Below, in pieces: positions 10,615 to 42,860 of a stretch of 46,727 nucleotides of DNA. How positions within the stretch are numbered: position 1 is the stretch's first letter; each line of letters starts with the position of its first letter. Origin of the DNA: a virus; IMG/VR virus record IMGVR_UViG_3300025887_000038, positions 1 through 46,727 of that record. One strand, written 5' to 3'. Both the position numbers and the translations under genes were made by a program. The notes under the pieces were generated by a model, which had not been told where the DNA came from, searched no databases, and saw only the letters and a list, made by a program, of their open reading frames with translations.

Positions 10615-11304
10615 CTACTTGTCTGGCGTAATGTCTTTCGCGGTGCCCTCGATAAGAGGTTGATGTGCAACTTCGCGGGTGGTTGCGCCTGATGTGATGA
10701 GTTCTCGCTGCTTCTCAGCCATAGAAGTCAGAGCGTCTTTCAGCTCTTTCATTCCTGAGGTCTCTTGGACCCCGATGTTCAACTCGATCTCAGCCTTTTC
10801 AGGCTTTTTGAGATGGGTCAGAATTGAGTTTGCAGCATCGCTGCGGACCTTCTCGCTCTTGGCGGTAACCATCAGCTCCAGCTGGGTGTTGATCGCTTTC
10901 TGGTAGACGTCCTGATTGAGAACCCAGGAAGGGATGACCGACTGCTCGAGGATTAGATTGACGAGTTTGTTCTTGTTATAGGCGTGGACATACGAAGAGA
11001 TGTCTTTTGAGGATGTGCCCTTGGCGACCAGTCCCCGGTATCGTGCCGGGAAGGTTCGCGCATAGGATTCCTGGTTGTTGTAGCCCATCAGCTTGTAGCT
11101 CACGTAGGCTACTGCATGGACGTAATCCTCACTCTTGAAGCGTCCCTTCAACAGGCATGAGGAATACCCGATGAAGTTTTCCCTAATCACACGAGCCTGT
11201 TCTGGGTCCGACGAGATGGAATTAACCATAGTGACCAATTCCTGGGAGACAGATGTCTTCAGGTGTGGCGGAAGGGCTGCTGTAATTTCGGCAGATGTTA
11301 GCAC
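10615..11304 (-). CDS. N4 gp69-like protein, putative terminase small subunit
   Basis: 229 aa, first gene of the packaging operon. It is alpha-helical and ends its helical part with AANSILTHLKKPEKAEIELNIG, a phrase I associate with small terminase / gp69-type proteins of N4-like and related phages. Residues ~195-229 are polar and likely disordered. The position upstream of the large terminase, separated only by nucleotide-metabolism genes, fits DNA recognition during packaging. The N4 gp69 equivalence is mostly from synteny. The ATG at 11304 lies just downstream of an AT-rich region with a palindrome that may hold the late promoter. Confidence 0.65.
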   Translation of the reverse strand: MLTSAEITAALPPHLKTSVSQELVTMVNSISSDPEQARVIRENFIGYSSCLLKGRFKSEDYVHAVAYVSYKLMGYNNQESYARTFPARYRGLVAKGTSSKDISSYVHAYNKNKLVNLILEQSVIPSWVLNQDVYQKAINTQLELMVTAKSEKVRSDAANSILTHLKKPEKAEIELNIGVQETSGMKELKDALTSMAEKQRELITSGATTREVAHQPLIEGTAKDITPDK

Positions 11305-11409
11305 GGGATACTCCAGATCATATCAACTGATCTTTGTAATAGATCCCGTTTATTAATCTTCTTGATAAGATACAAGAAAAACCGATTGACACTAACTGTT
11401 TATTTCCGG

Positions 11410-11443
11410 AGAACAAACATAAGATCTAGATAATCTTTGTTCT
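11410..11443. promoter_or_regulatory. Imperfect palindrome upstream of the late operon (operator-like)
   Basis: AGAACAAA and TTTGTTCT form the 8-bp outer arms of a 34-nt imperfect palindrome. A second, offset inverted repeat lies inside it (AAGAT/ATCTT around CTAGATA). It lies ~105 nt upstream of the gp69-like start, in an AT-rich stretch. A regulator-binding site or part of the late promoter is plausible. No clear -35/-10 pair can be assigned. Confidence 0.4.
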
Positions 11444-11614
11444 AGTAGTCCATCATGCGCCCCTCTCCCCCTGGGCCGTGGAGCAGGCTAGTGCCCCTAG
11501 TTTCATGATGGACTTCTCGAGCGTGGCTACGATGTCCGAAGGGCTCCTTTCACCTTAGGCGCGTCGACTGACCAGACTGCGGGGCTCTGGAAGTGCCCGC
11601 TCGACCATAACCCC
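11444..11614. other. GC-rich non-coding segment with nested inverted repeats
   Basis: No convincing gene. It contains an 11-bp perfect inverted repeat AGTCCATCATG (11447-11457) / CATGATGGACT (11504-11514), TCGAGCG/CGCTCGA at about 11517 and 11597, and CCAGA...TCTGG near 11573-11593. Several small stems (for example CTAG...CTAG) lie between the arms. It could be a structured transcript at the end of the 11.6-18.3 kb operon, a terminator complex, or a genome-end or packaging site. The sequence alone does not decide. Confidence 0.4.
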
Positions 11615-12613
11615 TTACGTCTTGACTTCGAAACCGACTTCCGCGGCAGATACTCCCGCAGCTGTCCACGTAACTGCCGTGTCTGGGTCAGTAATCCACG
11701 AGTCGGTCACGCGACCGTACTGGTGTCTGGCGGGTGTCCGATCTGCGATGGCGTTGTAGTCAGTGCTCCCAGATCGAATGAACTGTCGTACGTTAAGTGG
11801 GTCTGTTCCCGCAGCACCCGTCCTCAGACGCGCTGAGGCATTCACGGAGTGTATCGCTCTACCACCAGGCACGGCGTACGCAGGGAGTGTGTACGATTGC
11901 TTCTCACCGTTTGCAGCACTGGCCCATCCCGTAGTTCTATCCCCATCGTTAATCTCACCGACAGTTTCCGAGATATCTTGGTGGGTGCCAGCGGCTGATC
12001 CTTCTAACTTCTCTAGCTTCATCCCGACGGTGGACTCATCGTACGCATGGATGATCTGGCTGTAAGCAGCTTGGTTAGAGGCCACAAACATATCATTGTG
12101 CCCCATGTAAAATGCGGTAGGCATCTTTGCAGCACCGGATGCAGCGACTGTTGCCGTGCGTTGCAGGGTATCGTTTTCGTACATCCGCAGGTAGCAGTTA
12201 GCTCCATCGTCCTCGTACTGGAAATCGTAAGTATCCAGTGTATCTACATTCAAAGTAAAAGCGGCAGCGTTAGAGAATCCACCGGCTGCGTTGTAGACTC
12301 GGATGACAAGAGTACCGTTCGTGTAGTCACCGTAAGCCATGAGAGTGCCATCGGGTGCTACCCACCTAAACCACTCACCATCTGCAACACCGTTATTGGA
12401 GTTGGGCAGGTAAGCATCAAAGTGGAGCCAGACTTCAGCAGCAGAACTCACATCTACTTCGTGAGTAAAGAGTAATCCTGTACTAGAGCCCGCGGTCTGA
12501 GTCGTAATGTAAAGATAATCGCTGACGTAGGCTGGGTCATACTTACCGCCGGTCGTCCCCCGAAGAGCGCCGTTACAGTCTTTGTGGTCATTTGTGCAGA
12601 ATGCGACAGTCAT
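11615..12613 (-). CDS. Putative virion protein with lectin-like beta-sandwich
   Basis: 332 aa, no signal peptide or membrane segment. The first ~200 residues read as a concanavalin/LamG-like jelly roll (EVWLHFDAYLPNSN, EWFRWVAPDGTLMAYGDY, YDFQYEDDGANCYLRMYEND), a fold often found in phage fibre or decoration proteins that bind glycans. The C-terminal ~120 residues are a second beta-rich domain (VGEINDGDRTTGW...). Last gene of a minus-strand run of seven probable structural genes. The assignment is from composition, fold impression and neighbours; no specific homologue is recognised. Confidence 0.6.
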   Translation of the reverse strand: MTVAFCTNDHKDCNGALRGTTGGKYDPAYVSDYLYITTQTAGSSTGLLFTHEVDVSSAAEVWLHFDAYLPNSNNGVADGEWFRWVAPDGTLMAYGDYTNGTLVIRVYNAAGGFSNAAAFTLNVDTLDTYDFQYEDDGANCYLRMYENDTLQRTATVAASGAAKMPTAFYMGHNDMFVASNQAAYSQIIHAYDESTVGMKLEKLEGSAAGTHQDISETVGEINDGDRTTGWASAANGEKQSYTLPAYAVPGGRAIHSVNASARLRTGAAGTDPLNVRQFIRSGSTDYNAIADRTPARHQYGRVTDSWITDPDTAVTWTAAGVSAAEVGFEVKT

Positions 12614-22143: not shown

Positions 22144-22983
22144 ATGGACATCCAGAACCAGATCGAGCTTGAAAAGCTCTTCAACAAGAATGAGACAATG
22201 CCACGGCTCAAGTCTGAGTTCCGTGATCCTATCATCGTCGACCATTGTGTAGAATCTGGCATCCCGCTGGATTTCGCACTCGACCTCCTGTCACAGATGG
22301 TCCTGCACAAGCGGGCCACTGTGGGCATGTTGGTTGGTATCCTCAACCGTCACTTCGGGACGGGAGAGTCTGCCTTCCAGGACTGCGCCGACATGCTCGT
22401 CAAAGCATCAGAAGTAAATCTGATCCGCTGGGATGAGATGGCCAGACAGTTCATCATGCTGATCGACGTCTCCGCAGAGACACACGCCGACCTCGAGAGA
22501 TACCAGTATCCTCTCCCGATGGTCATTGAGCCCCGTGAAGTGAAGACCAACCGTGACACCGGTTACATCACCTCCAAGGCCTCCATCTTGCTGAAGAACA
22601 ACCACCACGACGATGACGTCTGCCTCGATCACATCAACAGAGCGAACCAGGTGAAGCTGTGCATCAATCCTGAAACTGCTCGCATGATCCAGAACGAATG
22701 GGCCGGCATCTACCAACAAGGACCAAACGAGACCAACAAGGAGTGGTCGCTCAAAGTCCGGAACTTCCAGAAATACGATCGTACATCTCGTGACGTCATG
22801 GAGCATCTCTTCATGGCGGGTAACGAGTTTCACCTCACACACCGATACGACAAGCGCGGCCGCTGCTATGCCCAGGGTTACCATGTGAACACACAAGGGA
22901 ACGACTGGAACAAAGCAGTGATCGAGTTTGCTGATGAAGAAATCATCACAGGTGTCGAACTCAAGAAAGAGATCGCAGCATGA
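22144..22983 (+). CDS. N4-type RNA polymerase II, small subunit (gp15-like)
   Basis: 279 aa (N4 gp15 is ~269). Corresponds to the N-terminal/thumb-side part of T7 RNA polymerase. The hallmark is HRYDKRGRCYAQGYHVNTQG at residues ~233-252, followed by ND, aligning with the T7 RGRVYA...NPQGND segment that contacts the template and the start site. The large N-terminal promoter-recognition domain of T7 RNAP is absent, as in N4. This agrees with an enzyme that needs a phage-encoded recruiting factor. The frame closes normally and the next subunit has its own ribosome binding site, so this is a natural split, not a frameshift. Expected to form a heterodimer with the 403-aa protein and transcribe the middle genes. 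Confidence 0.9.
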   Translation: MDIQNQIELEKLFNKNETMPRLKSEFRDPIIVDHCVESGIPLDFALDLLSQMVLHKRATVGMLVGILNRHFGTGESAFQDCADMLVKASEVNLIRWDEMARQFIMLIDVSAETHADLERYQYPLPMVIEPREVKTNRDTGYITSKASILLKNNHHDDDVCLDHINRANQVKLCINPETARMIQNEWAGIYQQGPNETNKEWSLKVRNFQKYDRTSRDVMEHLFMAGNEFHLTHRYDKRGRCYAQGYHVNTQGNDWNKAVIEFADEEIITGVELKKEIAA

Positions 22984-23093
22984 CCATCACGTATCACGCC
23001 GTCACCGTTCAGGATGTAAACTGGGACGATGGTGGTCGTGACCGGGTGCGACAGCTGTCCAGCATCCCATCGGTGTGCATACGCAACCTCTAA
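22980..23093 (+). CDS. Possible 37-aa protein between the RNAP subunits
   Basis: ATG at 22980 overlaps the small-subunit stop (ATGA) and encodes MTITYHAVTVQDVNWDDGGR... for 37 codons, ending 26 nt before the large-subunit start. The overlap suggests real translation, but the product is short and unrecognised. It could simply couple expression of the two subunits. Confidence 0.4.
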   Translation: MTITYHAVTVQDVNWDDGGRDRVRQLSSIPSVCIRNL

Positions 23094-23119
23094 TCAACCT
23101 CAAATCTAGGAGCATTATC

Positions 23120-24331
23120 ATGCAAACTTTCACTGGAATCGAATACCTCAAGATCGATATTGCTTCTAACTTTGGCCTTGGCAAATCCACATGGGACGAG
23201 CGTCTCGCTTGGGCTGACAGCAATGAAGCAGACCTCGAAACTCTCGTGAGCCAGGCTGAAGAACCAGCGATGTATTTCGCAGGTGTTCAAGCCTACCGCA
23301 AAGCTCAGAAGGGCCAAGCAACTGGCTATGCCATCTCTCTCGACGCCACTGCTTCAGGTTTGCAGCTCCTCTCCTGCCTGACAGGCTGTGAGGACAGCGC
23401 ACGGCTCTGCAACGTCGTCAACTCGGGCAACCGTGAAGACGCCTACAAGCTTATCTACAAGGCTATGTGCGATGAGATTGGCGACACTGCCAAGATCAGC
23501 CACGACGACACCAAGCAGGCCATTATGACGTCCCTCTACTCATCCACTGCTGTGCCAAAGCAGGTCTTCGGTGAGGGTGAATTGCTCAAGGTCTTCTACG
23601 AGACCATGGAGAAAATGGCGCCAGGTGCATGGGCTCTTAACCATGCGCTGCAGCAGCTATGGCAGGCTGATGCCCTCTCCCATGACTGGGTGATGCCGGA
23701 CAACTTCAACGTCCACATCCCAGTCCTCACTCCTGTCACCAAGTATGTTCAGTTTCTGAACGAGCCGGTGGCAGTCACGACCAATGAGAACATCGGAACC
23801 AAGGAAGGCAAAAGCATCTCTCCGAACATCGTCCACTCGATCGATGGAATGATCGTCCGTGAAATGCACCGTCGTTGTTCCTACAACCAAGACACTCTTC
23901 AGATTCTTATCATGTCCATCCTCAAGCAGGAAAAGCATGGTTGGGAATGGGGAACCAGAACAGGACGCAAGCAAGACACCATGGTCCAGACTATCTGGGC
24001 TCGCTACAAGACTTCGGGCTTCCTTTCAGCTCGTATCCTTGACCACCTGGATGCTGAGAATATGGGTCACGTTGACCCTACGGCAATCAAGGATTTGATC
24101 AAATCTCTCCCTGACACACCCTTCCCGGTCATTTCTATCCATGACTGCTTCCGGGTTTCCCCGAATAAGGGCAACGATTTGCGTCAACAGTATAATGAGA
24201 TACTGGCAGACATCGCTGCATCAGAGTTGCTTTCTTACATCGCTTCTCAGATTCTAGGTAATTATCTACCTATTGTGAAAGCAGGCGACATCGCCTCAAA
24301 GGTGCGCAAAGCGGACTACGCCCTATCCTAA
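23120..24331 (+). CDS. N4-type RNA polymerase II, catalytic subunit (gp16-like)
   Basis: 403 aa (N4 gp16 is ~404). Carries the catalytic palm and fingers of the T7 family: motif A D75 in SLDATASGLQ, motif B K132...Y140 in DDTKQAIMTSLYSS (K and Y 8 residues apart as in T7 K631/Y639), SPNIVHSIDG ~234-243, and motif C H341-D342 in PVISIHDCF. The spacing D75-D342 (267) is close to T7 D537-D812 (275). ATG 23120 is preceded by CTAGGAG; an in-frame ATG at 23075 exists but overlaps the 37-aa frame. With the 279-aa partner it forms the phage-made RNAP for middle transcription. A strong terminator follows at once. Confidence 0.92.
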   Translation: MQTFTGIEYLKIDIASNFGLGKSTWDERLAWADSNEADLETLVSQAEEPAMYFAGVQAYRKAQKGQATGYAISLDATASGLQLLSCLTGCEDSARLCNVVNSGNREDAYKLIYKAMCDEIGDTAKISHDDTKQAIMTSLYSSTAVPKQVFGEGELLKVFYETMEKMAPGAWALNHALQQLWQADALSHDWVMPDNFNVHIPVLTPVTKYVQFLNEPVAVTTNENIGTKEGKSISPNIVHSIDGMIVREMHRRCSYNQDTLQILIMSILKQEKHGWEWGTRTGRKQDTMVQTIWARYKTSGFLSARILDHLDAENMGHVDPTAIKDLIKSLPDTPFPVISIHDCFRVSPNKGNDLRQQYNEILADIAASELLSYIASQILGNYLPIVKAGDIASKVRKADYALS

Positions 24332-29021: not shown

Positions 29022-30137
29022 ATGACCCAGGAAACCATCGACGTACTTTTCGACAAAACTGTAGGTAACCTCTTCTTCAAGAAGGGCGCCGGTTTCCTGG
29101 GTACATTGCTCGCCAAGGTCAAATTCAAGTGGGACTCTACGATGCCCACAGCTGCCATCAGTGACAGCGTACTTTATTGGAATCCTGAGTTTTATCTCAC
29201 CCTGTGCAAAGACACTCGCGTCACTGTTCTGGCGCATGAACTCTGGCACAACGCATTTCTGCACGGGCTTCGTCTTCAAGGACGGTGTCCGGAACTGTGG
29301 AACGAGGCGGCCGACCACGTAATCAATCTCATGCTGGAAGCGCATGGGTATTACATGGGTGGTTTTCCATTCCTGATGGACCACCGTTTTACGGATATGA
29401 ACACAGAACAAGTTTACGACATTCTGGCCAAAGAGCGCGAAGACGGTGGGCAACCACTGCCGAACTCCTTGGGCGGGGACATTCTCCCGATTGACCCCGA
29501 CCAGAAGTCTAAGGCTGTCGCCAACGTGGTGGGCGCAATGGCGACAGCCCGAATTACTGGAGGAGCCGGAGACATCCCTGGTGAGGTCTCTCTCACCATG
29601 GACTCCTTCCTAAATCCCAAGCTCCCTTGGGATACATTGCTGCTAAATTACATGAATGAGTTGACCTCTGAAGAGTATTCCTACGCACGCCCAAACCGTC
29701 GCTATACAGACCCACTCCTGCGCGGACGCAGTGGCCGCAATGGTCTCGAGCATCTGATATATTACCTGGATATTTCCGGATCTATCTCTGATCAGGAAAT
29801 CCTCAGGTTCAACTCTGAAGTCAAATACATCCAAGAGGAGCTCACGCCTGAGCGCCTCACTCTGGTCACGTTTGACACAGAGATCAAAGACGTAATGGAC
29901 TTCGAGAAAGACGACCCGTTTGAGAAGATCACAGTCACAGGCCGCGGTGGAACTGATCTCGTAGAGGTCTTCAACCACGCCATCGACCAGGCTCCGACGG
30001 CAATCGTTATCTTCACGGATCTCCATGTCTCCATCCCAGACAATCCAGAGATCCCTTTACTCTGGATCTGCATGAATAACCCCAAAGCAGAGGTCCCCTT
30101 TGGGACCCTCATACACATGGAAGCAGAAGCAGCATGA
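29022..30137 (+). CDS. VWA-like protein with metallopeptidase-type N-domain (N4 gp25-like)
   Basis: 371 aa. N-terminal zinc-peptidase-like motif VLAHELWHNAFLH (H72-E73-L-W-H76), then a VWA-like domain with MIDAS D250-x-S252-x-S254 (YYLDISGSIS) and TGRGGTDL ~307-313. The arrangement is that of DUF2201 proteins, which work with MoxR AAA+ ATPases. The HExxH is intact, so peptidase activity is possible but unproven. Follows the MoxR-like gene closely and overlaps the ThyX gene by 4 nt. Confidence 0.85.
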   Translation: MTQETIDVLFDKTVGNLFFKKGAGFLGTLLAKVKFKWDSTMPTAAISDSVLYWNPEFYLTLCKDTRVTVLAHELWHNAFLHGLRLQGRCPELWNEAADHVINLMLEAHGYYMGGFPFLMDHRFTDMNTEQVYDILAKEREDGGQPLPNSLGGDILPIDPDQKSKAVANVVGAMATARITGGAGDIPGEVSLTMDSFLNPKLPWDTLLLNYMNELTSEEYSYARPNRRYTDPLLRGRSGRNGLEHLIYYLDISGSISDQEILRFNSEVKYIQEELTPERLTLVTFDTEIKDVMDFEKDDPFEKITVTGRGGTDLVEVFNHAIDQAPTAIVIFTDLHVSIPDNPEIPLLWICMNNPKAEVPFGTLIHMEAEAA

Positions 30138-31141
30138 GAAAAGAAATCATTGAAGTCGGAGAAAAATACCGGCTCGACGGCACCGAGATGGAAGTTGAGG
30201 TCATCGAGCATTCCTGCGGCGCAGACTGGGTCCCGGATATCTTCACCATACGGATGCGGTATCCTCGGATCATCCACGCTGAGGTCATGACACACCGTGT
30301 CTTTGGACGGAACGCCCGCAGCTCTCGTGCCGTCCCTATCAAAACTATGCTCTGCGAGATCATGGACGCCCCATTTGTGCCTTGGCACTGGGGCCTGAAC
30401 CAATCGGGTATGCAGGCTGACGAAGAGAACACCGCCGACGTCTTCCTCGGCGACGCCTACAAATACCGGAGGGGAAGTCACATCAGCAGAGAGACTGCTT
30501 GGAAATTCGCCTCCTCTCACACCTACCATATTGCCACTGCTTTCATGAATGCTGGCTACCACAAGCAGGTGGTCAACCGTCTCCTCGAGCCCTTCATGTG
30601 GATCGATGTTCTGATCACCTCAACGGACTGGAACAACTTCCTGTGGCTCCGGGATCACAAAGACGCTGAGCCCCATCTGCAGGATCTTGCCCGGTTGGTC
30701 GAAGCTGCCATGACAAACTCCACTCCCAATCTCCTGGAACCAGGTGAATGGCATCTGCCGTACATCTCCCAGGAAGATACTGCTTTCCTCATGTCTGAAG
30801 ACAACGTGCACGACGTAGGCAACCTTGAGTTCCTTCAGCGCGTCTCAGCAGCTCGCTGTGCCCGCATCTCGTACAGGCCCTTCGATGGCGACGCCAGCTA
30901 TACGAAGGAACTTGCCCGTTACGACATGCTGGTCTCCTCAGACCGTGTCCATGCCTCTCCTCTGGAGCATCAGGCCACACCTGATCACCTTATCCTGATC
31001 GACGGTGTAATGGTCGACGAAGAAGGTGAGACGATCGAAGAACTGGGCACCGCTGAAAAATGGAACAGCCCTGATCTCCACGGCAATCTCGATGGTTGGA
31101 TTCAGTTTCGCAAGTTGGTTCCCAACGAGTGGAAACCCTGA
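30134..31141 (+). CDS. thyX: Flavin-dependent thymidylate synthase ThyX
   Basis: 335 aa. Makes dTMP from dUMP using FAD, methylene-tetrahydrofolate and NADPH. The ThyX signature appears as MTHRVFGRNARSSRAVP (residues 52-68, T replacing the first R of RHR as in many phage enzymes). A C-terminal SAARCARISYRPFDG ... LVSSDRVHASPLEHQATP region supplies further dUMP and folate contacts. Longer than bacterial ThyX (~220-250 aa), as is usual for phage versions. Coupled to the VWA gene (ATGA). Together with the MazG- and MazZ-like enzymes it points to active dNTP pool control. Confidence 0.9.
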   Translation: MRKEIIEVGEKYRLDGTEMEVEVIEHSCGADWVPDIFTIRMRYPRIIHAEVMTHRVFGRNARSSRAVPIKTMLCEIMDAPFVPWHWGLNQSGMQADEENTADVFLGDAYKYRRGSHISRETAWKFASSHTYHIATAFMNAGYHKQVVNRLLEPFMWIDVLITSTDWNNFLWLRDHKDAEPHLQDLARLVEAAMTNSTPNLLEPGEWHLPYISQEDTAFLMSEDNVHDVGNLEFLQRVSAARCARISYRPFDGDASYTKELARYDMLVSSDRVHASPLEHQATPDHLILIDGVMVDEEGETIEELGTAEKWNSPDLHGNLDGWIQFRKLVPNEWKP

Positions 31142-31488: not shown

Positions 31489-31746
31489 GTGATCGATTCT
31501 GAAATGCAAGCAAAGAACCCAGTTGCTTACGCTCTGCGTAAGGCTGGGTACATCCCACTGCCCCGGCTGTGGATTCGACGTGATGAGATTGGTTTGATCC
31601 ATGACATCGCAGAGAAATCCCGTGTCGAGGTTAACAACATCCGTGGTGCGGCTTCTCGCAGCCACATTGAGAACCAGAAAGTAACACCGGAAAACAACCG
31701 GGATGCTGCATGGGCTGCTCACGAAAAAGCCCAGGCAAGGAGCTGA
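31489..31746 (+). CDS. Hypothetical protein before the excisionase-like gene
   Basis: 85 aa, charged, helical (VAYALRKAGYIPLPRLWIRRDEIGLIHDIAEKSRVEVNNIRGAA). GTG at 31489 follows a CGAGGA ribosome binding site and is the likely start; the next ATG is 15 nt further. The helix-turn region ~30-55 (EIGLIHDIAEKSRVEVNNIR) could bind DNA. It lies 4 nt upstream of the Xis-like gene, so it belongs to the recombination module transcript. Confidence 0.55.
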   Translation: MIDSEMQAKNPVAYALRKAGYIPLPRLWIRRDEIGLIHDIAEKSRVEVNNIRGAASRSHIENQKVTPENNRDAAWAAHEKAQARS

Positions 31747-31750
31747 TCTG

Positions 31751-32044
31751 ATGGCACTTCCAGTCGTTCACAAGTTCACATCTGTGGCCAGGCATCTCGG
31801 TGTTTCCGTTGACAGCCTCCGTAAGGTAGCGGATGAACACGGCTTCACCATACGAATTGGGCGGAACTTCCGTCTGCTCGAGAGTGATGTTCAAAAGCTG
31901 ATGGAATTATGCCGGCAAAAAGAAAAAGCGCCCGTCTCGTTTGGAGAGCCGTTTCAGGGCGGCAGCCCTACTGGCAGATACGTGACGGAACGACCCGAGT
32001 ATCGACAGGTACGCACATCCGCGAAGATGCTGAAGAAGCTCTAG
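31751..32044 (+). CDS. Excisionase-like HTH protein
   Basis: 97 aa. The N-terminal winged-helix/MerR-like HTH, FTSVARHLGVSVDSLRKVADEHGFTIRIGRNFRLLESDVQKL, has the layout of recombination directionality factors (AlpA/Xis type). Immediately followed by, and overlapping (136 nt, other frame), a tyrosine integrase. Its C-terminal third is basic and encoded over the integrase start. Role as Xis or integrase regulator is inferred from fold and location. Confidence 0.68.
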   Translation: MALPVVHKFTSVARHLGVSVDSLRKVADEHGFTIRIGRNFRLLESDVQKLMELCRQKEKAPVSFGEPFQGGSPTGRYVTERPEYRQVRTSAKMLKKL

Positions 32045-33006
32045 CAAGGTATCTCGACCTGAAATACCAACCGAATACTCCGGTTGGCCCACAAGAACTC
32101 ACCATCTCCCGGGCCCTAGATATCTACGCCAAAGAACATGCAGTTCATGTCGCTGATCCCGCACGGATCGGGTATGCAATTGATGCTTTGGATAGTTTCT
32201 GGGGAGACCAGCCAGTTTCCATAATCACTGGTGCTACATGCCGGAAGTATTCCAGCTCTAGAAAGACCCGTTTCGGTGTTGTCGCCTCACCCGGCACCAC
32301 CAGACGAGAGCTGAATGTTCTCCAGGCTGCTCTCAATTACTGCCACGCTGAGGGCTATCTCGTAACACCACCCAAAGTCACACTCCCTGCGTCGCCTTCT
32401 CCCAAAGAGCGCTGGCTAACTCGTCAAGAGGCGGCATGGCTTCTGAAGGGAGCCAGGAATCTCAGGGCGGACGGCCGGCACCTGGCCCAGTTCATCCTGC
32501 ATGGTCTCTATACTGGCAGCCGAAAACAGACGATTCTCTCCATGCGCATAGACACCCCCAGCAAAAGCGGAGGGCATGTCGACACAAAGACCGGAGTTCT
32601 CTATCGAAAGCCGCAGGGCAAACTCGAGACCGCAAAGCGGCAGAGACCGGCACGTCTTCCCCCAAGGTATCTCTCTTATTTACGCATACAATCTAAGAAC
32701 AATCGCCGAATGATCGTCCAAGATCACAAGGGTCATCAGATCGGTGACATCCGAAAAGGATGGGCCAACGCTACCCAAATAGCTATTGAATTAGCGGCCG
32801 CCAAAGGCATCAAAATCAACTTCGATGGTGTTACTCCACACACTCTCAAGCACACAGCAATCACCTGGGCTCTCCAGAATGGCGCCACCACTTGGGACAC
32901 AGCTGGTTACTTTTCCACATCCATTGAGACGATACAAAAGGTCTACGGACACCACTCTCCAGACCATCAGAAGACCGCTGTAGCGGCCCTGAACAGGCGA
33001 AAATGA
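31909..33006 (+). CDS. int: Tyrosine-family integrase
   Basis: 365 aa. N-terminal arm-binding domain (MPAKRKSARLVWRAVSGRQPYWQIRDG, typical of alphaproteobacterial phage integrases), SAM-like core-binding region, and a catalytic domain with R205 (YTGSRKQTIL), a K in the beta hairpin, H311-T-L-K314-H315 and nucleophile Y346 (ETIQKVYGHHSPDHQ). The second catalytic Arg of HxxR is Lys here (HTLKH). I believe this occurs in a subgroup of these integrases, so activity is likely but not certain. Begins inside the Xis-like gene and ends 64 nt before a tRNA-like attP site, the classical arrangement of a phage recombination module. Confidence 0.9.
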   Translation: MPAKRKSARLVWRAVSGRQPYWQIRDGTTRVSTGTHIREDAEEALARYLDLKYQPNTPVGPQELTISRALDIYAKEHAVHVADPARIGYAIDALDSFWGDQPVSIITGATCRKYSSSRKTRFGVVASPGTTRRELNVLQAALNYCHAEGYLVTPPKVTLPASPSPKERWLTRQEAAWLLKGARNLRADGRHLAQFILHGLYTGSRKQTILSMRIDTPSKSGGHVDTKTGVLYRKPQGKLETAKRQRPARLPPRYLSYLRIQSKNNRRMIVQDHKGHQIGDIRKGWANATQIAIELAAAKGIKINFDGVTPHTLKHTAITWALQNGATTWDTAGYFSTSIETIQKVYGHHSPDHQKTAVAALNRRK

Positions 33007-33013
33007 GCTGAAC

Positions 33014-33218
33014 CGGGTCCCGAAGCGGGTCCCCAGAAACTCTGGTGTCTCTCAAAAGCCTTATTTTGTTGGTGCACCCGGGGCGATTCGAACGCCCGGC
33101 CTCTGCCTTCGGAGGGCTATGCCAGTGCTACATATGGCATACTTTACAGTTATAAAGTGCCATTTAGTGCACGCCCAAAACACCCCAAAACACTCGAAGC
33201 GGGTCCCAATCGGGTCCC
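33014..33218. other. attP region: tRNA-Arg-like core flanked by paired arm repeats
   Basis: Core 33070-33117, on the minus strand, reads as the 3' half of a tRNA-Arg(CCG): anticodon loop CTCCGAA, T-arm GGGCG-TTCGAAT-CGCCC, acceptor CGGGTGC, discriminator A and CCA. The 5' half is absent, as expected of an att site rather than a tRNA gene. Four direct copies of CGGGTCCC lie at 33014-33021, 33026-33033, 33200-33207 and 33211-33218, two on each side and one helical turn apart. They look like integrase arm sites. Phage genes lie on both sides, so the site is intact attP. Confidence 0.78.
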
Positions 33219-33362: not shown

Positions 33363-33857
33363 ATGAGCGTTAATCAGTCCCAATCATTATCCACTATCCG
33401 CCAGATCAAGTCTTGGTTTGAATCTGCGGTTCCAAAACCAAACGCGAAGAATATTCACGCCCAGCTTGGTGTGCATATGGAAGAAGTCGGAGAGATGCTA
33501 GAAACTCTTCGTGATGCAGGATCTACATTTCCTGTACGAGAACAGCTTGGTCTGTGTGTCGATGTTGTCGACTTCACCCAACGCCAACTCAAAGCCTACA
33601 CCGGAGGTGCAGAGATCGCCCTACAGGATCTCGACCGCACTGCGCTACTCGATGCACTCGCCGATCAAATTGTCACGTCTGTGGGCGTAGCTCACATGCT
33701 TGGCATGGACATCGAAGGTGCGCTAAATGAGGTCGCTTGCTCAAATGATTCTAAGTTTGGTGCAAACGGCAAACCAATTTTCAACGATCAGATGAAGATC
33801 ATGAAGGGCCCGGGTTACTACCCACCGGACTTGGCTAAATTTACGGGAAGGATTTAA
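33363..33857 (+). CDS. MazG-like NTP pyrophosphohydrolase
   Basis: 164 aa, all-alpha. Metal-binding acidic helices: E40-E41-x2-E44 (HMEEVGEML) and D97-x3-D101 (LLDALADQIVTSVG). It closes with NGKPIFNDQMKIMKGPGYYPPDL, typical of the phage MazG/HisE-like family. Hydrolyses NTPs or dNTPs to the monophosphates; phage members may alter (p)ppGpp or nucleotide pools. ATG 33363 is chosen; an earlier TTG (33255) is in frame but would run over promoter-like sequence (TTGACA at ~33280). 2 nt before the H-NS-like gene, so co-transcribed. Confidence 0.82.
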   Translation: MSVNQSQSLSTIRQIKSWFESAVPKPNAKNIHAQLGVHMEEVGEMLETLRDAGSTFPVREQLGLCVDVVDFTQRQLKAYTGGAEIALQDLDRTALLDALADQIVTSVGVAHMLGMDIEGALNEVACSNDSKFGANGKPIFNDQMKIMKGPGYYPPDLAKFTGRI

Positions 33858-33858
33858 G

Positions 33859-34176
33859 ATGCAACCCAATGATTTTAAAGATTTATCCCTCGAGGAACTT
33901 GTTAATATGCAGTCCAAGCTGAAGTCATTCGTTGACAAACGCTTGGATGCCAAAAAGCGTGATGCTCTGAATAAAATACAGAGTCTCGTTACTGAATTTG
34001 AGCTCGGCTTCGATGAAGTCGTTGCAGCAATTCGTGTTACAGCTAAACGCGGTAAGGCCCCCGCCATCTACCGCAACCCAGCGAACCCTCGTCAGACCTG
34101 GTCTGGCAAAGGCGACGCTCCTACCTGGTTCACAGAAGCTAACGACCCCGAAAAGCTTCGTATCCCAGGCGCTTAA
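33859..34176 (+). CDS. H-NS/HvrA-like DNA-binding protein
   Basis: 105 aa. N-terminal oligomerisation helix (DFKDLSLEELVNMQSKLKSFVDKRL) and a C-terminal domain with YRNPANPRQTWSGKGDAPTW (residues 71-90), the H-NS family DNA-binding signature. In typical members the minor-groove loop reads QGR or GRGR. Here it is GKGD, so the key Arg is replaced by Asp and DNA binding may be altered. H-NS-like proteins silence AT-rich foreign genes. A phage copy could repress phage genes in lysogeny or interfere with the host silencer. Same transcript as the MazG-like gene; followed by a terminator. Confidence 0.83.
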   Translation: MQPNDFKDLSLEELVNMQSKLKSFVDKRLDAKKRDALNKIQSLVTEFELGFDEVVAAIRVTAKRGKAPAIYRNPANPRQTWSGKGDAPTWFTEANDPEKLRIPGA

Positions 34177-34597: not shown

Positions 34598-35905
34598 ATG
34601 CTACATTCTGCCCCAATCGTCCCAAGTCTGAACTCAGATCAACAAAAAGCCGTCGCTGGCATATTCCAGTTCCTGTTCTCAGACGACAAAGAGTTCATTG
34701 TCTCCGGTCCTGCTGGCACCGGCAAAACCTTCTTGATGAACCACATCATGAAAACCGTGATCCAGGAGTACACAAACGCCTCCAAGCTTCTTGGGCAAAC
34801 GCCCATCGACTATGAGGTAGCTCTCACTGCCACGACTAACAAAGCAGTCGAAGTCCTCAGCGTAGCTACGGGCTTCCCTGCCACGACAGTCCACAGCTTC
34901 ATGAACCTGAAGGTCGTGGACAACTACACCACAGGTGTCTCTTCGATCACCCGGACCAACTCCTGGAAAGTGCATAAGAACCAGCTCATCTTCGTTGACG
35001 AAGCCTCGATGATCGACACCAAGCTGCATGACTTCATCTTGCTCGGCACAGATTCCAGCTGCAAAATCATCTATCTGGGTGACCACTGCCAGATGGCACC
35101 GGTCTTTGAGACCATCTCCCCGGTCTACAAGCACCCCAAGAACTTCGTCAATCTGACGGAACCAATGAGGAATGCGGGCCAGCCTGCCCTCGTTGATCTG
35201 TGCGCACGTCTCCGCAACACCGTCGAAACTGGGAAGTTCTTCCAGCTCCCATCGGTTCCTGGTGTCATCGATTATCTCGACGGCCCGTCCGCTCAGCAGT
35301 TCATCGACACCACATTCAAAGTCGAGAACCCTGGCTGCCGGATGCTCTGTTACACCAATGCCCGGGTCCAAGAGTATAACGACTATGTCCGAAATCTAAG
35401 GGGTTACCCTGATCTGTTCACCGAGGGTGAAGTCCTGATCAACAACTCCGGCATCCAGCTCGGCAAAACCTTTCTGCGTGTTGAGCAGGAACTCACAGTC
35501 AACAAGGTTCTCTCTACGCCTGCACCCCATTCTCTCGATGCCACAGACCCTAACGCCACGATCGATGTCTATCGGGTCGAACTTAGCACACCTGGTGGTT
35601 CCCCCATCTCCGTGATGATCCCGTCCAATACGGATCACTACAAAGCGATGATGAAGCACTTCGCCAGGATCAAAGACTGGACGAAATTCTACTTCCTCAA
35701 GAACAACTTCCCTGACCTTCGTCAGAAGGATGCGGCCACCGTCTACAAGGCCCAGGGCAGCACCTACAAGTCCGTGTTCCTGGATCTCGGCAACATCGGC
35801 AAATGCACCAAGGAAGATCAGCTGGCACGGATGCTCTACGTCGGTGCCTCTCGTGCAACCACACGTCTGTTCTTGTTTGGCCAGCTTCCAGATCGCCTCT
35901 TTTAA
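34598..35905 (+). CDS. Dda/RecD-like SF1B DNA helicase (N4 gp37-like)
   Basis: 435 aa. Walker A VSGPAGTGKTFLMN (residues ~35-48), Walker B FVDEASMID ~131-139, motif III-like LGDHCQMAPV, and C-terminal KAQGSTYKSVFLDLGNI plus MLYVGASRATTRLFLFG (motifs V/VI), as in Dda and RecD2. Unwinds DNA 5' to 3' and probably acts with the polymerase and primase encoded downstream. Position upstream of the DNA polymerase matches N4 gene 37. Confidence 0.9.
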   Translation: MLHSAPIVPSLNSDQQKAVAGIFQFLFSDDKEFIVSGPAGTGKTFLMNHIMKTVIQEYTNASKLLGQTPIDYEVALTATTNKAVEVLSVATGFPATTVHSFMNLKVVDNYTTGVSSITRTNSWKVHKNQLIFVDEASMIDTKLHDFILLGTDSSCKIIYLGDHCQMAPVFETISPVYKHPKNFVNLTEPMRNAGQPALVDLCARLRNTVETGKFFQLPSVPGVIDYLDGPSAQQFIDTTFKVENPGCRMLCYTNARVQEYNDYVRNLRGYPDLFTEGEVLINNSGIQLGKTFLRVEQELTVNKVLSTPAPHSLDATDPNATIDVYRVELSTPGGSPISVMIPSNTDHYKAMMKHFARIKDWTKFYFLKNNFPDLRQKDAATVYKAQGSTYKSVFLDLGNIGKCTKEDQLARMLYVGASRATTRLFLFGQLPDRLF

Positions 35906-36211: not shown

Positions 36212-36736
36212 ATGTCTGCCCAATATCGCAATCCCATATACGTCAACCCTGTCATGGAACTCCTGGACCCAGTGGTCTCTGGTCTGATCATGCCTGAATG
36301 GCGTCGCCTGGATGCTATCCTAAAGGCATTGATCCTCAAGAATTTCACCGCTGGTGGCCACGAAGATGGCTTCCTCCATGGGGGCGAAACCTACTGCCTC
36401 AAGAAGCCCTTCTATCTGCGTGGTGCGCAAATCTCCCCCATCCATTTCTCGCTCTTTGATGATGCAGAATTCTATCGGCAGTGTCGTGATGACTTGAAAC
36501 GCGACATCAAGAAACTCCGTCAGTCACTGACTGTGGTTCTCCCTCGATGCCGCGACAAGCAGGATCTACGGGACGCATTCCCTGAAGTCTTGATCAGATA
36601 CATCCCCGAGCTGCAGTCGCTGGCAAGATCCAGAGAAGAGGGACACCTCCTGGAGTCCACTCCTGTGCTGCACCGCCAATTTGAACAAGCTGTGAAAATA
36701 GCCCTCGCTTACACAGCCAACCAGTTGATATATTAA
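36212..36736 (+). CDS. Conserved replication-region protein (N4 gp38 position)
   Basis: 174 aa, helical with a mixed centre: NPIYVNPVMELLDPVVSGL, GGHEDGFLHGGETYCLKKPFYLRG, and a charged helix FYRQCRDDLKRDIKKLRQSL. Ribosome binding site GAGGAG precedes ATG 36212. Stop and the polymerase ATG overlap (TAATG). The position equals N4 gp38, directly before the DNA polymerase. No enzyme motif. Confidence 0.65.
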   Translation: MSAQYRNPIYVNPVMELLDPVVSGLIMPEWRRLDAILKALILKNFTAGGHEDGFLHGGETYCLKKPFYLRGAQISPIHFSLFDDAEFYRQCRDDLKRDIKKLRQSLTVVLPRCRDKQDLRDAFPEVLIRYIPELQSLARSREEGHLLESTPVLHRQFEQAVKIALAYTANQLIY

Positions 36737-39339
36737 TGAAATATCTCACCTTTACGAAGCAAGAGCGCAACTCTTACGAGATATGCTTCCTTGTCCCCTC
36801 GCTACATATGGCAGATATCGACCGACACTATGTCGAGCCGTTTCTCGATAATGAGCGTGAACACCTGCTGGCCTATGACCTGTTCCAACAGGGCAAGAAG
36901 ACCCCAGTGAAACTCCAACGGGAGTACCTCGAGCAGCTCCTCCCAATTCTGGAGGATCTGCATGTCAAATACCTCGTCACCTGTGATGCAGAGTATTTCA
37001 AAACCCTCACCAAATCCCCCAAAGCAGATGCTGCTCTAGGATACGTTCTGGATAGTGTCTGTGGCCGCTTCAAGGTCATCTACTGCCCAAATTACAAGAC
37101 GATCTTTTACGATCCAGACCGTATCAAAACGAATATCAGTGCTGCCCTGCGTGCTCTCGCAATGCACCGGCAGGATACCTACCTTCCCCCGGGCTACGAG
37201 ATCATCAAGTCTGGCTCCTACCCTTCAACCACGGCTGACATCAGATCCTGGCTCCAGCTTTTGTTGGATATGAACTGCGCTCTATCGGCAGACATCGAGA
37301 CATTCTCTCTGAAGCATCATGAAGCCGGCATAGGCACCATCAGCTTTGCATGGAATGAGAGCGAAGGTGTTTCCTTCGCAGTTGACTATGAGCCAATCCC
37401 CGGTGCCACATCAGCCCCCTACGGCAGAGCCGTAGTCAATGGGCCTGTGCGAGAGTTGCTGAAGGAGTTCTTCCGCGCCTTCAAACATAAGATGATCTGG
37501 CACAACATCAGCTTTGATGTCTATGTGCTTGTTTATCAACTCTTTATGGATGACCTCCTCGACACGAAAGGTCTCCTAGATGGCCAAGCAGTTCTTCTCA
37601 ACAACTGGCACTGCACCAAGCTCATCACATACCTCGCCACCAACTCGTGTGCCGGTAACAAACTAGGTCTGAAAGACCAGGCCCAGGAGTTCGCAGGCAA
37701 CTACGCTGTGGGTGACATCAAAGATATCACCATGATACCTTTGGACGTCCTGTTGCGGTACAATCTGGTGGATACCCTTTCCACCTGGTTCGTCTTCAAC
37801 AAGCACTGGCCCACCATGGTCCAGGACGAGCAGCTCGAGATCTATAACGAGCTGTTCCAGCCCTGCATTTGGGACATAATCCAGATGCAGCTCACTGGCC
37901 TTCCCATTGATATGGAAGAGGTAAAGCGTCTCGAGATCGAGTTGCAAACTCATTCCGACAAAGCTGTCGCTGAGATGAACAACAACATTCTCCTGCAGGA
38001 GTTCCTCTACACGGAGAATGAGGCCTTAGTTCTCAAGAAGAACGCAGAATACAAGGTCAAGCGCATCACGCTTGCTGATGTCGATGTACCCTTCAATCCC
38101 AACTCGGGCCCGCAGCTTCAGCGGTTCCTCTTTGAGCAGCTTGACCTGCCTGTTCTGGATCTCACCGATACAAAGCAGCCGGCCACTGGAGGGGAAACTC
38201 TCGAGAAGCTTCTGAACCACACAGAGGATCCAGAGATACTGGAGTTTCTGCAAGCTTTGCTGGAGTTCAAAGGCGTCGATAAGCTCCTCACCAGCTTCAT
38301 TCCTGCGTTCCTCAAAGCGGCGCCGGATGACAATGGTTGGCACTGGCTCTTTGGCAACTTCAACCTTGGTGGAACTCTGTCCGGTCGCCTGTCCTCATCG
38401 GGACCCAACCTGCAGAACCTACCGGCCAAAGGCAAATGGGCTAAGCTGGTCAAGAAGTGTTTCAAAGCCCCTCCTGGTTTTCTGTTTATTGGTCTGGATT
38501 TCGACTCCCTTGAGGACAAGATTTCAGCTCTCACAACAAACGATCCCAATAAGCTGAAGGTCTACACGGATGGGTATGACGGGCACTCTTTGAGGGCCTA
38601 CTCGTATTTCACCGAGCGGATGTCTGACATTGATCCAGACTCAGTGGCCAGCATCAACTCGATCGGCAAGAAATACCCCAATGAACGGCAGGATTCTAAA
38701 GCTCCGACTTTTGCCCTCACTTACCAAGGGACCTACATCACCCTGATCAACAACTCAGGGTTCACCGAGCCCTTGGCACGCCACATCGAGAACCAGTACC
38801 ACGAGCTGTACCGGGTCTCAGACGAGTGGGTTGCTGCCCGCATCCATGAAGCCTCAAAGACCGGTTTCATCACGGGTGCCTTTGGTCTCAAAGTCCGGAC
38901 CCCTCTGCTGAAGCAGACCATCCTCGGAAACCGAGGCACACCCTATGAAGCAGAGGCCGAAGGTCGCTCAGCGGGCAATGCTTTGGGACAGTCTTGGTGT
39001 CTCCTCAATAGCCGGGCCCACAAAGAGTTCATGAAGGTCGTTAGATCTGGTGAATATCGCCTGGATATACGGCCCTGCGCTCAAATCCATGACGCAGGCT
39101 ACTACGTCATCCCTGATGCGATGCCTGTTTTACGCTATGTAAACAAGCATTTAGTCGAGGCTGTGCAGTGGCAAGATCACCCAGATATCCAACATGATGC
39201 CGTCAAACTCAGCGGGCAATTAGGGGTCTTTTACCCTGATTGGTCAGCGGAGATGACACTCCCAATCGAAGCATCAAGTGAAACTATCAACGATCTTGCT
39301 TATAAACATCACTTGAAATACTGTGCTGAAACCGCTTGA
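36736..39339 (+). CDS. Family A DNA polymerase with 3'-5' exonuclease (N4 gp39-like)
   Basis: 867 aa (N4 gp39 ~872). Replicative polymerase. Exonuclease: Exo I D186-I-E188 (CALSADIETFS), Exo II KMIWHNISFDVY, Exo III YNLVDTLSTWF. Polymerase: motif A D588 (IGLDFDSLEDK), motif B RQDSKAPTFALTYQG with K655, motif C H785-D786 (AQIHDAGYYV). All catalytic residues seem present, so proofreading is expected. Coupled to the preceding gene (TAATG) and followed after 36 nt by the 100-aa gene. Confidence 0.93.
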   Translation: MKYLTFTKQERNSYEICFLVPSLHMADIDRHYVEPFLDNEREHLLAYDLFQQGKKTPVKLQREYLEQLLPILEDLHVKYLVTCDAEYFKTLTKSPKADAALGYVLDSVCGRFKVIYCPNYKTIFYDPDRIKTNISAALRALAMHRQDTYLPPGYEIIKSGSYPSTTADIRSWLQLLLDMNCALSADIETFSLKHHEAGIGTISFAWNESEGVSFAVDYEPIPGATSAPYGRAVVNGPVRELLKEFFRAFKHKMIWHNISFDVYVLVYQLFMDDLLDTKGLLDGQAVLLNNWHCTKLITYLATNSCAGNKLGLKDQAQEFAGNYAVGDIKDITMIPLDVLLRYNLVDTLSTWFVFNKHWPTMVQDEQLEIYNELFQPCIWDIIQMQLTGLPIDMEEVKRLEIELQTHSDKAVAEMNNNILLQEFLYTENEALVLKKNAEYKVKRITLADVDVPFNPNSGPQLQRFLFEQLDLPVLDLTDTKQPATGGETLEKLLNHTEDPEILEFLQALLEFKGVDKLLTSFIPAFLKAAPDDNGWHWLFGNFNLGGTLSGRLSSSGPNLQNLPAKGKWAKLVKKCFKAPPGFLFIGLDFDSLEDKISALTTNDPNKLKVYTDGYDGHSLRAYSYFTERMSDIDPDSVASINSIGKKYPNERQDSKAPTFALTYQGTYITLINNSGFTEPLARHIENQYHELYRVSDEWVAARIHEASKTGFITGAFGLKVRTPLLKQTILGNRGTPYEAEAEGRSAGNALGQSWCLLNSRAHKEFMKVVRSGEYRLDIRPCAQIHDAGYYVIPDAMPVLRYVNKHLVEAVQWQDHPDIQHDAVKLSGQLGVFYPDWSAEMTLPIEASSETINDLAYKHHLKYCAETA

Positions 39340-39727: not shown

Positions 39728-40726
39728 ATGAACGTAATGACCAACAACTCCGATCTGTCTCTCTGCATGTCCGTCTGGCTTGCCCATGACGACTACGCCA
39801 ATGGCGCAGACCAGTTCCCTGGGAAGAACGTGATATCGGCCACCTCGTTGCTGAAGCCTACCCGCCAGCTTGTCCTGGGAAATCGTGTGCCCATGAAGGA
39901 GCGGACTGTCGACGTATCTGACATGATCCCCTCCCAATTGGGCCGCGCTATCCATGACAGCATCGAGGGAGCCTGGACCCATGGCTACCAAGAGGCCATG
40001 CTCAAGCTGGGGTACACCCAGAAAGTCATCGACCGTGTCAGGATCAACCCTGAGACCGTCGAAGACGGGGACCTTCCCGTCTATCTCGAGCAACGGTTTT
40101 TCAAATCCATCACAGTTGATGGTGTGGAAATCATCATATCGGGCAAATTCGACCAGATTATCATGGGCGAATTGAACGACACCAAGACCACATCCGTCTA
40201 CGCCTACATCAATCGCTCGAAGGAAGAGGACTACCGAATTCAGGGCTCGATCTATCGTTGGATCAGCCAAGACAAGGTGACCTCTGACATCATGCGTATC
40301 CAGCACGTCTTCACCGACTGGCAAAGGTCCATGGCCCGAGCCAGCAGAGATTACCCCCAAGAGCGGGTTGTCGAATTCAAAGTGGAGATGATGAACATCA
40401 AAGAGACCGAGAATTGGATGCGTCTCAAGGTCCGGGAAATCATTGCCAACCAGAACCTCCCAGAACCAGAAGTGATCCGGTGCTCTGACAAAGATCTCTG
40501 GAAATCTGACCCGCAATACAAGTTCTACGCTGACCCCGCAAAAGCCACACAAGGTGGAAGATCTACAAAGAACTTCGCCAATTACCCCGCAGCTGCAGCC
40601 CACCGCAACAAGGCGGGAAAAGGCGTTGTCATAACAGTTCCCGGCCAGGTGAAAGCCTGTGGCTACTGCCCTGGCTTTACCGAATGCACTCAGAAAGACG
40701 AGTACCCTGAAAATGATCGATCTTAA
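39728..40726 (+). CDS. PD-(D/E)XK (RecB/Cas4-like) nuclease (N4 gp42-like)
   Basis: 332 aa. Core SGKFDQIIMGELNDTKTTSVYAY gives the D...D-x-K pattern of PD-(D/E)XK nucleases, with a helix before it containing R and Q. A C-terminal cysteine cluster, KACGYCPGFTECTQ, resembles Cas4-type Fe-S ligands (an N-terminal Cys would be the fourth). Probably a DNA exonuclease used in replication or recombination. It overlaps the primase gene by 14 nt and matches N4 gene 42 by order and size. Confidence 0.75.
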   Translation: MNVMTNNSDLSLCMSVWLAHDDYANGADQFPGKNVISATSLLKPTRQLVLGNRVPMKERTVDVSDMIPSQLGRAIHDSIEGAWTHGYQEAMLKLGYTQKVIDRVRINPETVEDGDLPVYLEQRFFKSITVDGVEIIISGKFDQIIMGELNDTKTTSVYAYINRSKEEDYRIQGSIYRWISQDKVTSDIMRIQHVFTDWQRSMARASRDYPQERVVEFKVEMMNIKETENWMRLKVREIIANQNLPEPEVIRCSDKDLWKSDPQYKFYADPAKATQGGRSTKNFANYPAAAAHRNKAGKGVVITVPGQVKACGYCPGFTECTQKDEYPENDRS

Positions 40727-42860
40727 CACTGTAGACCACCACCCTGCGATCGAGGAAATTGTCGAAATCCTCTGCAATAAAGCCCAGAAAACCGACCGTG
40801 GTTTCTTCCGTGTTGAGGTTGCCTATTTCCTCTCCAAGATGGCCGCTTCAATGCGTGCCACGATCCAGACAAAGGACCGGGGAGAGATCCCAGTGAATGT
40901 TTATGCACTGGCCCTGGCAACGTCCGGCTTTGGAAAAGGCCATTCCATAAGTATTATGGAAACTGACTTCATGGCTGGCTTCCGCAAACGCTTCATGGAA
41001 GACACATTTCCGGTAATCTCTGAAGGCCACCTCGCCCGTCTTGCTCTCGAACGTGCAGCCATGTCAGGCAAGACCGAAGAGGAAGAAAAGCAGAAGCTTG
41101 ACCGGGAATTCATGGATGCAGGCGCACTCGCTTTCACCTTCGATTCAGGCACTCCAGCAGCCGTCAAGCAGATGCGCCAGAAGCTTCTCCTGGCAAAGTG
41201 CGGCGCCATCAATCTCCAGATCGATGAGATTGGTTCCAATCTTGTTGGCTCCACAGATGTTCTCAACGTCTTCCTCGAGCTTTACGATCAAGGACAGGTC
41301 AAGCAGAAGCTCATCAAGAATACCGCGGAGAACACCCGGGGCGAAGAGCTTGAGGGCAAGACCCCAACCAACGCTCTGTTGTTTGGCACACCGTCAAAGC
41401 TTCTCGACGGAGGCATCACTGAGGATCACTTCTACTCCTTCCTGGAGATAGGCTACGCTCGTCGCTGCCTGTTTGCATGGGGTGAGCATGAACGTGCTTC
41501 CGCCTCTCTGTCGCCTGCCGAGATCTACAAGCGGCTTACACAGAGCAGAAACACTGCCACTACAAACGCATGGACCAATCAGTTCGCGCTTCTCGCTGAC
41601 CCAGCAAAGTATGGCTGGGAGATGGAAGTCCAGGACGACGTAGCAATCGAGCTGCTCACCTACAAGATTGAGTGTGAGGACCTTGCCGATCGCATGGCCG
41701 ATCATGAGGATATCCGCAAAGCGGAGATGTCTCACCGGTACTTCAAGTGCATCAAACTGGCCGGCGCATTGGCATTTGTCGATGAGTCTTCCGAAATCAC
41801 AATGTCCCACCTGCACTCTTCCATGAAACTGGTCGAGGAAAGTGGCGTTGCGTTCCAGAAGCTGATGAACCGTGAGAAGACCTACGTGAAGCTGGCCAAG
41901 TACATTGCGGCCAACGACACTGAGTTGACCCACGCTGATCTGCACGAAGCCCTTCCGTTCTATAAGTCGGGCCAGGCTGCACGCAACGAGATGATGACCC
42001 TGGCGACTGCCTGGGGCTACAAGCAGCACATCCTCATTCGGAAAACTTTCGTGGATGGTATTGAATTCTTCTCAGGTGACACGCTTGAGGAGACCAACCT
42101 AGACGAGATGCGTCTGTCGTACTCGGACCACTTTGCTTACAACTATCAACCCGAGAAAGCTGCCTTCAAGCAGCTGCACCTGTTGACCCAAGCAAAGGAC
42201 ATGCACTGGGCAAATCACCACTTCACCAAAGGCCACCGTGCCGAGGAGAATGTGATCGAGGGCTTCAACATGGTCGTCATCGACTTTGATGGGGATGTGC
42301 AACTGGCAACAGTTCACGACCTCCTGAAAGACTACCAGTTCATGACCCACACCACGAAGCGTCACACACCTGAAGTGAACCGCTTCCGGGTCATCTTGCC
42401 GATCAACTATGTCCTGACACTGGATCAGGACGACTACAAAGAGTTCATGAACAACGTCATGGATTGGCTGCCATTCAAAGCTGACGAGCAAGCAAACCAG
42501 CGTGCCCGCAAGTGGATGACATTCGATGGTGGCACCCATCATTACAATGACGGGGACCTCCTCGACTCTTTGAAGTTCATCCCAAAGACCACGAAGAACG
42601 AACAGTACCGCAACTCTATGAGTGAACTGGAGTCTCTCGATAATCTCGAGCGCTGGTTCGCTCAGCGGATGGCGTCAGGCAACCGAAACAACCAGATGAT
42701 CAAGTACGCCTTGGCTCTGGTTGATGGCGGTATGGATCTGACCCAAGTCGAGCAATCTGTTCTCAGCTTCAACGCTCGTATGAACTCACCTCTTACGGAA
42801 GATGAGATCAGATCTACGATTCTCGTCACCGTAGCGAAAAAGATCTACTCGTCTCCTTGA
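40713..42860 (+). CDS. DUF3987 ATPase-primase fusion (N4 gp43-like)
   Basis: 715 aa (N4 gp43 ~723). Residues ~20-400 match the DUF3987-like helicase/ATPase type (VYALALATSGFGKGHSISIM as P-loop region, LQIDEIGS as Walker B, LLFGTPSKLL as sensor). Residues ~500-640 form an archaeo-eukaryotic-type primase core with D524-x-D526 (VVIDFDGD), HTTKRHTPEVNRFRVIL and RARKWMTFDGG. The C-terminal ~60 residues are a helical PriCT-like tail. Supplies RNA primers and probably unwinding for replication. ATG 40713 chosen, since an earlier start at 40659 would overlap the nuclease gene by 68 nt. Confidence 0.85.
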   Translation: MIDLNTVDHHPAIEEIVEILCNKAQKTDRGFFRVEVAYFLSKMAASMRATIQTKDRGEIPVNVYALALATSGFGKGHSISIMETDFMAGFRKRFMEDTFPVISEGHLARLALERAAMSGKTEEEEKQKLDREFMDAGALAFTFDSGTPAAVKQMRQKLLLAKCGAINLQIDEIGSNLVGSTDVLNVFLELYDQGQVKQKLIKNTAENTRGEELEGKTPTNALLFGTPSKLLDGGITEDHFYSFLEIGYARRCLFAWGEHERASASLSPAEIYKRLTQSRNTATTNAWTNQFALLADPAKYGWEMEVQDDVAIELLTYKIECEDLADRMADHEDIRKAEMSHRYFKCIKLAGALAFVDESSEITMSHLHSSMKLVEESGVAFQKLMNREKTYVKLAKYIAANDTELTHADLHEALPFYKSGQAARNEMMTLATAWGYKQHILIRKTFVDGIEFFSGDTLEETNLDEMRLSYSDHFAYNYQPEKAAFKQLHLLTQAKDMHWANHHFTKGHRAEENVIEGFNMVVIDFDGDVQLATVHDLLKDYQFMTHTTKRHTPEVNRFRVILPINYVLTLDQDDYKEFMNNVMDWLPFKADEQANQRARKWMTFDGGTHHYNDGDLLDSLKFIPKTTKNEQYRNSMSELESLDNLERWFAQRMASGNRNNQMIKYALALVDGGMDLTQVEQSVLSFNARMNSPLTEDEIRSTILVTVAKKIYSSP

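Follow-up and report, generated by a model that had tools for sequence, protein, structure and literature searches.

An overlapping xis-like gene, a tyrosine integrase and a tRNA-Arg(CCG)-like attP in an N4-like virus contig

Described systems and their relation to this locus

N4-type phages have long been described as purely lytic, and N4 is the model of a lytic cycle begun by an RNA polymerase that is injected with the DNA. The DNA analyzed here is the whole of the IMG/VR record IMGVR_UViG_3300025887_000038 (46,727 bp, linear, without end repeats; hereafter the window). A sequence-only reading of it had taken N4-like phages to be lytic and had accordingly found a complete integration module unusual. 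That premise is outdated: according to a 2023 study (PMC10654107), 54 N4-like genomes or proviruses carry lysogeny genes, and 40 proviruses, mainly from Moraxella, are integrated. The study states that earlier evidence was lacking, and it treats only high-quality genomes. Like the window, the viruses described there combine N4 hallmark genes with an integrase, and they are read as lysogenic. An attP, an integration site and an excisionase are absent from the main text of that study and, judging by titles and abstracts, literature matches for an N4-like phage with attP and integrase together concern other phages. Integrase-bearing N4-like viruses are already known; the attP anatomy, the target tRNA and the recurrent location of the module are the new part.

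For the module itself, a described counterpart is found in Rhizobium phage 16-3 (NC_011103). There, as in the window, the xis and int genes overlap, and the feature annotated as "functional attachment site; attP" follows directly 3' of int. The likeness extends to an antisense core made of a tRNA 3' half, to repeats on both sides of this core, and to the catalytic tail of the integrase (TYGHHHPDHQ). However, 16-3 is not N4-like, and its core matches a tRNA-Pro-like sequence, whereas the core in the window matches tRNA-Arg(CCG). The window integrase also differs from 16-3 Int by an HxxK motif and an extra stretch of about 11 residues.

The module and its N4-type setting

The window encodes an N4-type gene set, as determined by ORF and PHROG/Pfam family searches (Table 1). 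The two-subunit RNA polymerase, the N4-type DNA polymerase, the primase, a gp42-like exonuclease and TerL are present in N4 order, and AAA and VWA proteins and a Sak4-like protein are also encoded. TerL and the other packaging proteins lie on the strand opposite to the rest of this set, and TerL is nearest to those of Schitoviridae isolates. The closest isolates are the Schitoviridae-type Sinorhizobium phage ort11 and Rhizobium phage RHph_X2_28B (58% identity for DNA polymerase and about 70% for TerL). The record is probably a fragment of the virus genome; Schitoviridae genomes measure about 60-80 kb, carry short terminal repeats and include major capsid and portal genes. A second IMG/VR contig (L008), with 100% protein identity to the window from the helicase through the right end, adds about 9 kb. 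In this added part an open frame, no shorter than 2967 aa, matches the virion RNA polymerase family (PHROG 2206, 1967 bits). The giant virion-encapsidated RNA polymerase, a hallmark of Schitoviridae, is thus present via L008. At the other end of the window, approximately positions 1 to 4500 (minus strand) contain repetitive alanine/serine-rich frames that possibly code for tail fibres.

Table 1. Positions of the module and of N4-type genes in the window.
Feature	Position	Strand	Evidence
N4-type RNA polymerase subunit 1	22144..22983	+	phrog_2166, 308 bits
N4-type RNA polymerase subunit 2	23075..24331	+	phrog_2051, 523 bits
ThyX-like thymidylate synthase, left neighbour of module	30134..31141	+	PHROG 85; 55% identity in syntenic L206
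Small ORF immediately upstream of xis	31489..31746	+	49% identity to homologue at same place in integrase-less L206
xis-like gene, 97 aa, HTH_17/excisionase-like	31751..32044	+	PHROG 66, E 4e-4; Pfam HTH_17, E 6e-4
Tyrosine integrase, Rhizobium phage 16-3 type, 365 aa	31909..33006	+	PHROG 1, E 2e-31
Left arm-type repeat pair (TGAACCGGGTCCC, CGAAGCGGGTCCC)	33009..33033	+	13-nt repeats at 33009, 33021
attP core, 48 nt; tRNA-Arg(CCG) 3' half, anticodon loop to CCA	33070..33117	-	Sequence match, Rfam
Right arm-type repeat pair (CGAAGCGGGTCCC, CCAATCGGGTCCC)	33195..33218	+	Repeats at 33195, 33206
MazG-like pyrophosphohydrolase, right neighbour of module	33375..33857	+	PHROG 671
Dda-like helicase, start of N4 replication block	34598..35905	+	PHROG 325
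DNA polymerase A	36736..39339	+	57-58% identity to Schitoviridae isolates incl. N4
N4-type primase	40659..42860	+	phrog_2135, 1149 bits

The sequence-only reading had proposed that an Xis-like helix-turn-helix gene, an overlapping tyrosine integrase and a tRNA-like attP lie together at 31751-33218, between ThyX and the replication genes, and thus form a complete module in an N4-type genome. The analysis agrees on every point: xis, int and an attP with arms are present, ThyX lies on the left, MazG, the helicase and the DNA polymerase lie on the right, and N4 genes occur on both sides. The space between MazG and the helicase, just past attP, also holds a gene for a protein with an H-NS-like C-terminal domain (33859-34176, plus strand; Pfam E 2e-8).

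The Pfam HTH_17 match of the Xis-like ORF is under the cut-off and its match to PHROG 66 ("excisionase") is weak. This ORF also aligns with the overlapping ORFs of two viral contigs with related integrases (L002 and L003), 16-3 xis, RHph_Y25 and L134. It overlaps int by 136 nt, int begins in phase +2, and the relative phase of the two frames is identical in all five cases computed (the window, 16-3, RHph_Y25, L002 and L134). The integrase shares 34% identity with 16-3 Int and 45-46% with the integrases of L002 and L003; L002 belongs to the closest group of integrase relatives. Its PF00589 score (19.4 bits) falls under the cut-off of 27.1 because the 16-3-type family is divergent. In an alignment with 16-3 Int, RHph_Y25 Int, two viral relatives and a chromosomal relative, Arg205 (box I), His311 and the nucleophile Tyr346 are in place; Tyr346 lies in VYGHH and aligns with the Tyr of 16-3 Int. 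Box II (HxxR) reads H311-x-x-K314, as it does in L002 and L003; lysine in place of this catalytic arginine is unusual. A lost catalytic tyrosine (PDH in place of PDY in the tail GHHSPDHQ) was considered and rejected, since the nucleophile is Y346. The same PDHQ occurs in 16-3 Int, the phage of which has an attP annotated as functional, so that the lack of a second Tyr in the tail does not mark a defect. The window integrase is predicted to be catalytically active.

The attP spans about 210 bp directly behind int and consists of two repeats, the core and two further repeats. The sequence-only reading had recognized the tRNA-like core, and the core does correspond to an antisense tRNA-Arg(CCG) 3' half; the four arm-type repeats are new relative to that reading. 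Their shared 8-mer, CGGGTCCC, has four copies, all in attP and none elsewhere in the 46.7 kb on either strand. Neither ARAGORN nor Rfam at its gathering threshold calls a full tRNA in the window because the core is only a tRNA half; the Rfam tRNA model matches 33073-33137 under its gathering score (24.9 bits, E 0.003). Among 385 Alphaproteobacteria searched with up to three mismatches allowed, four genomes have a tRNA-Arg(CCG) that differs from the core at two or three positions. An exact 48/48 attB was found in none of the 385, two narrower order searches did no better, and the best matches in a further bacterial order reach only 83-86% over the core. The viral contigs searched gave no exact match to the core.

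Related integrases occupy comparable sites. Behind int, RHph_Y25 has a tRNA-like core flanked on both sides by CGGTCCGC repeats, in L002 TGTAACAG repeats flank a tRNA-Arg(CCG) 3' half left and right, and L003 has a tRNA-Arg(CCG) 3' half. Chromosomal relatives with 35-38% identity to the window integrase occur in one bacterial order (that of genome G132), in which five genomes, namely all those with a good integrase match, were compared. In each of the five, an intact tRNA-Arg(CCG) follows the int match at a distance of no more than about 190 nt, in the antisense orientation of the window core. The target read from the sequence is therefore the target that this integrase clade really occupies. 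The integrase and tRNA relatives point to a host within Alphaproteobacteria, at no finer rank than the class, and thus not specifically to Rhodobacterales, the order in which the sequence-only reading had suggested searching for a prophage.

The closest syntenic relative is an uncultured N4-like virus of 73.9 kb (IMGVR_UViG_3300048582_000136; L206). It shares the gene order of the window (AAA, VWA, ThyX, two small ORFs and, further on, the helicase), with 49-65% identity for most genes (AAA 54%, VWA 50%, ThyX 55%, small ORF 49%, helicase 61%, polymerase 60% and primase 65%). In L206, two ORFs of no recognized function (10852-11618) occupy the place of xis and int, and no PF00589 integrase was found in the 73.9 kb. 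At the place of the window attP, L206 has a tRNA 3'-half-like sequence in the same orientation (11699-11745, minus strand), which was identified from its T-arm/CCA pattern and is not recognized by Rfam. In L040, which is also integrase-less, ThyX adjoins the helicase. Because the module is flanked left and right by N4 genes that keep their syntenic order, the arrangement in the window is that of the free form (virion or circular), as the sequence-only reading had held.

Integrases in other N4-like contigs

A search of N4-like viruses for integrases, which the sequence-only reading had suggested, was productive. In a profile search, PF00589 was found in five of 115 N4-like records besides the window, and in four of the roughly 56 of these that are at least 60 kb long (counts taken from the result tables). 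The five are G026 (L132), G046 (L131), G048 (L133/L136), G546 (L222) and G549 (L223); in the N4-like record G547 no integrase was found. By sequence, three integrase families can be distinguished, namely the 16-3 type (the window and G026), a second family (G046 and G549) and a third (G048 and G546). All five integrases sit between RNA polymerase subunit 2 and the helicase, like that of the window. A tRNA 3' half lies directly behind int in G026, G546 and G549, and ARAGORN calls a full tRNA at none of the three places; the half in G546 was assigned from its T-arm/CCA pattern, and Rfam gives it weak matches to other families only. Behind the G046 integrase, a strict pattern search found no tRNA half, and tandem repeats are present. 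The G048 contig runs from a point just ahead of AAA to the stop codon of int, which is a gene order permuted at int as would be expected of an integrated copy. In G549, a full tRNA-Arg(TCT) lies beside mazG, near the place of the window attP (L223:6399-6475, minus strand).

The sequence-only reading had also proposed a search for an N4-type prophage. An N4 primase scan of 84,980 species genomes (one genome per species) revealed no evident prophage of this phage in Alphaproteobacteria. The scan gave 11 matches, mostly phage-sized contigs in metagenome bins. A phage-sized N4-like contig was noted in a bacterial isolate assembly (Larsenimonas suaedae DSM 22428, contig6, 74,886 bp); no PF00589 match is listed for this sixth contig, which may be extrachromosomal or a contaminant. 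A further record (CAKZOO010000160.1, 114,770 bp) carries an N4-type primase block on a contig far longer than the usual N4-like genome, and may be a large relative or an integrated copy.

Origin of the module and implications for N4-like phages

We consider it likely that the window contains a bona fide 16-3-type integration/excision module, and that the N4-like (Schitoviridae-type) phage in which it resides infects an alphaproteobacterium. The main competitor is that the phage was formerly temperate and is now lytic, with the module kept by inertia as a recently silenced relic. The replacement of the catalytic box II Arg by Lys would fit such a history, as would the lack of a recognized prophage or repressor (no CI-like repressor was recognized among the small ORFs tested, with about 20 kb of the genome outside the data). 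L206, which keeps the tRNA 3' half without a PF00589 integrase, indicates that module loss does seem to happen in this lineage. However, the window module is intact in every part, with two open reading frames and good preservation of the core and its four arm repeats, and the integrases of L002 and L003 share the Lys substitution. We consider silencing rather unlikely. The phrase "temperate or formerly temperate" used in the sequence-only reading fits all of the evidence, and on the resident-module interpretation the phage may still form lysogens.

An artifact of assembly, in which a 16-3-type module of another phage was joined to an N4-like contig, is very improbable. The identical contig L008 does not reach the module junctions, since it starts only within the helicase gene, 1.6 kb beyond attP on the right. 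Yet such a chimaera requires two false joins, both between genes that are neighbours in N4 relatives: L206 has ThyX, small ORFs, a gap, a zinc-finger ORF and the helicase, and L040 has ThyX next to the helicase. The GC content is level over both junctions, and integrases occur in the same interval of other N4-like contigs. The compact 1.5-kb cassette, which is missing from L206 and L040, could also be seen as a separate mobile element (a satellite or island) inserted in the phage with its own int and attP. This has even less in its favour, as the cassette contains xis, int and attP only, and the window has one copy of the core, so that no attL/attR pair bounds an insert.

If the module is resident and functional, the CGGGTCCC arm repeats flanking the core would serve as binding sites for Int. 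The enzyme would recombine the core (48 bp) with the corresponding 3' half of a host tRNA-Arg(CCG) gene, such that the tRNA is restored. Excision would be steered by Xis, the product of the overlapping frame. Integration would break the circular genome between int and mazG, giving a prophage with xis-int at one end and mazG, helicase and polymerase at the other.

As a prophage has no injected polymerase, one must ask how a temperate N4 relative would begin its induction; the expectation that it would do so without this enzyme follows from established knowledge of N4. A broader hypothesis, which we offer tentatively, is that N4-like phages are repeatedly temperate, and by a common route. The interval from RNA polymerase subunit 2 to the helicase may be a permanent site for the gain, exchange and loss of integrase/attP cassettes that belong to unrelated families and have different tRNA targets. 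Lysogens of such phages would start the lytic programme without injected virion RNA polymerase, through a switch that has yet to be described. With the attP and its target defined in this detail, prophage screens at tRNA-Arg(CCG) and recombination on plasmids become feasible, and the label "N4-like" alone is no guarantee that a phage is strictly lytic.
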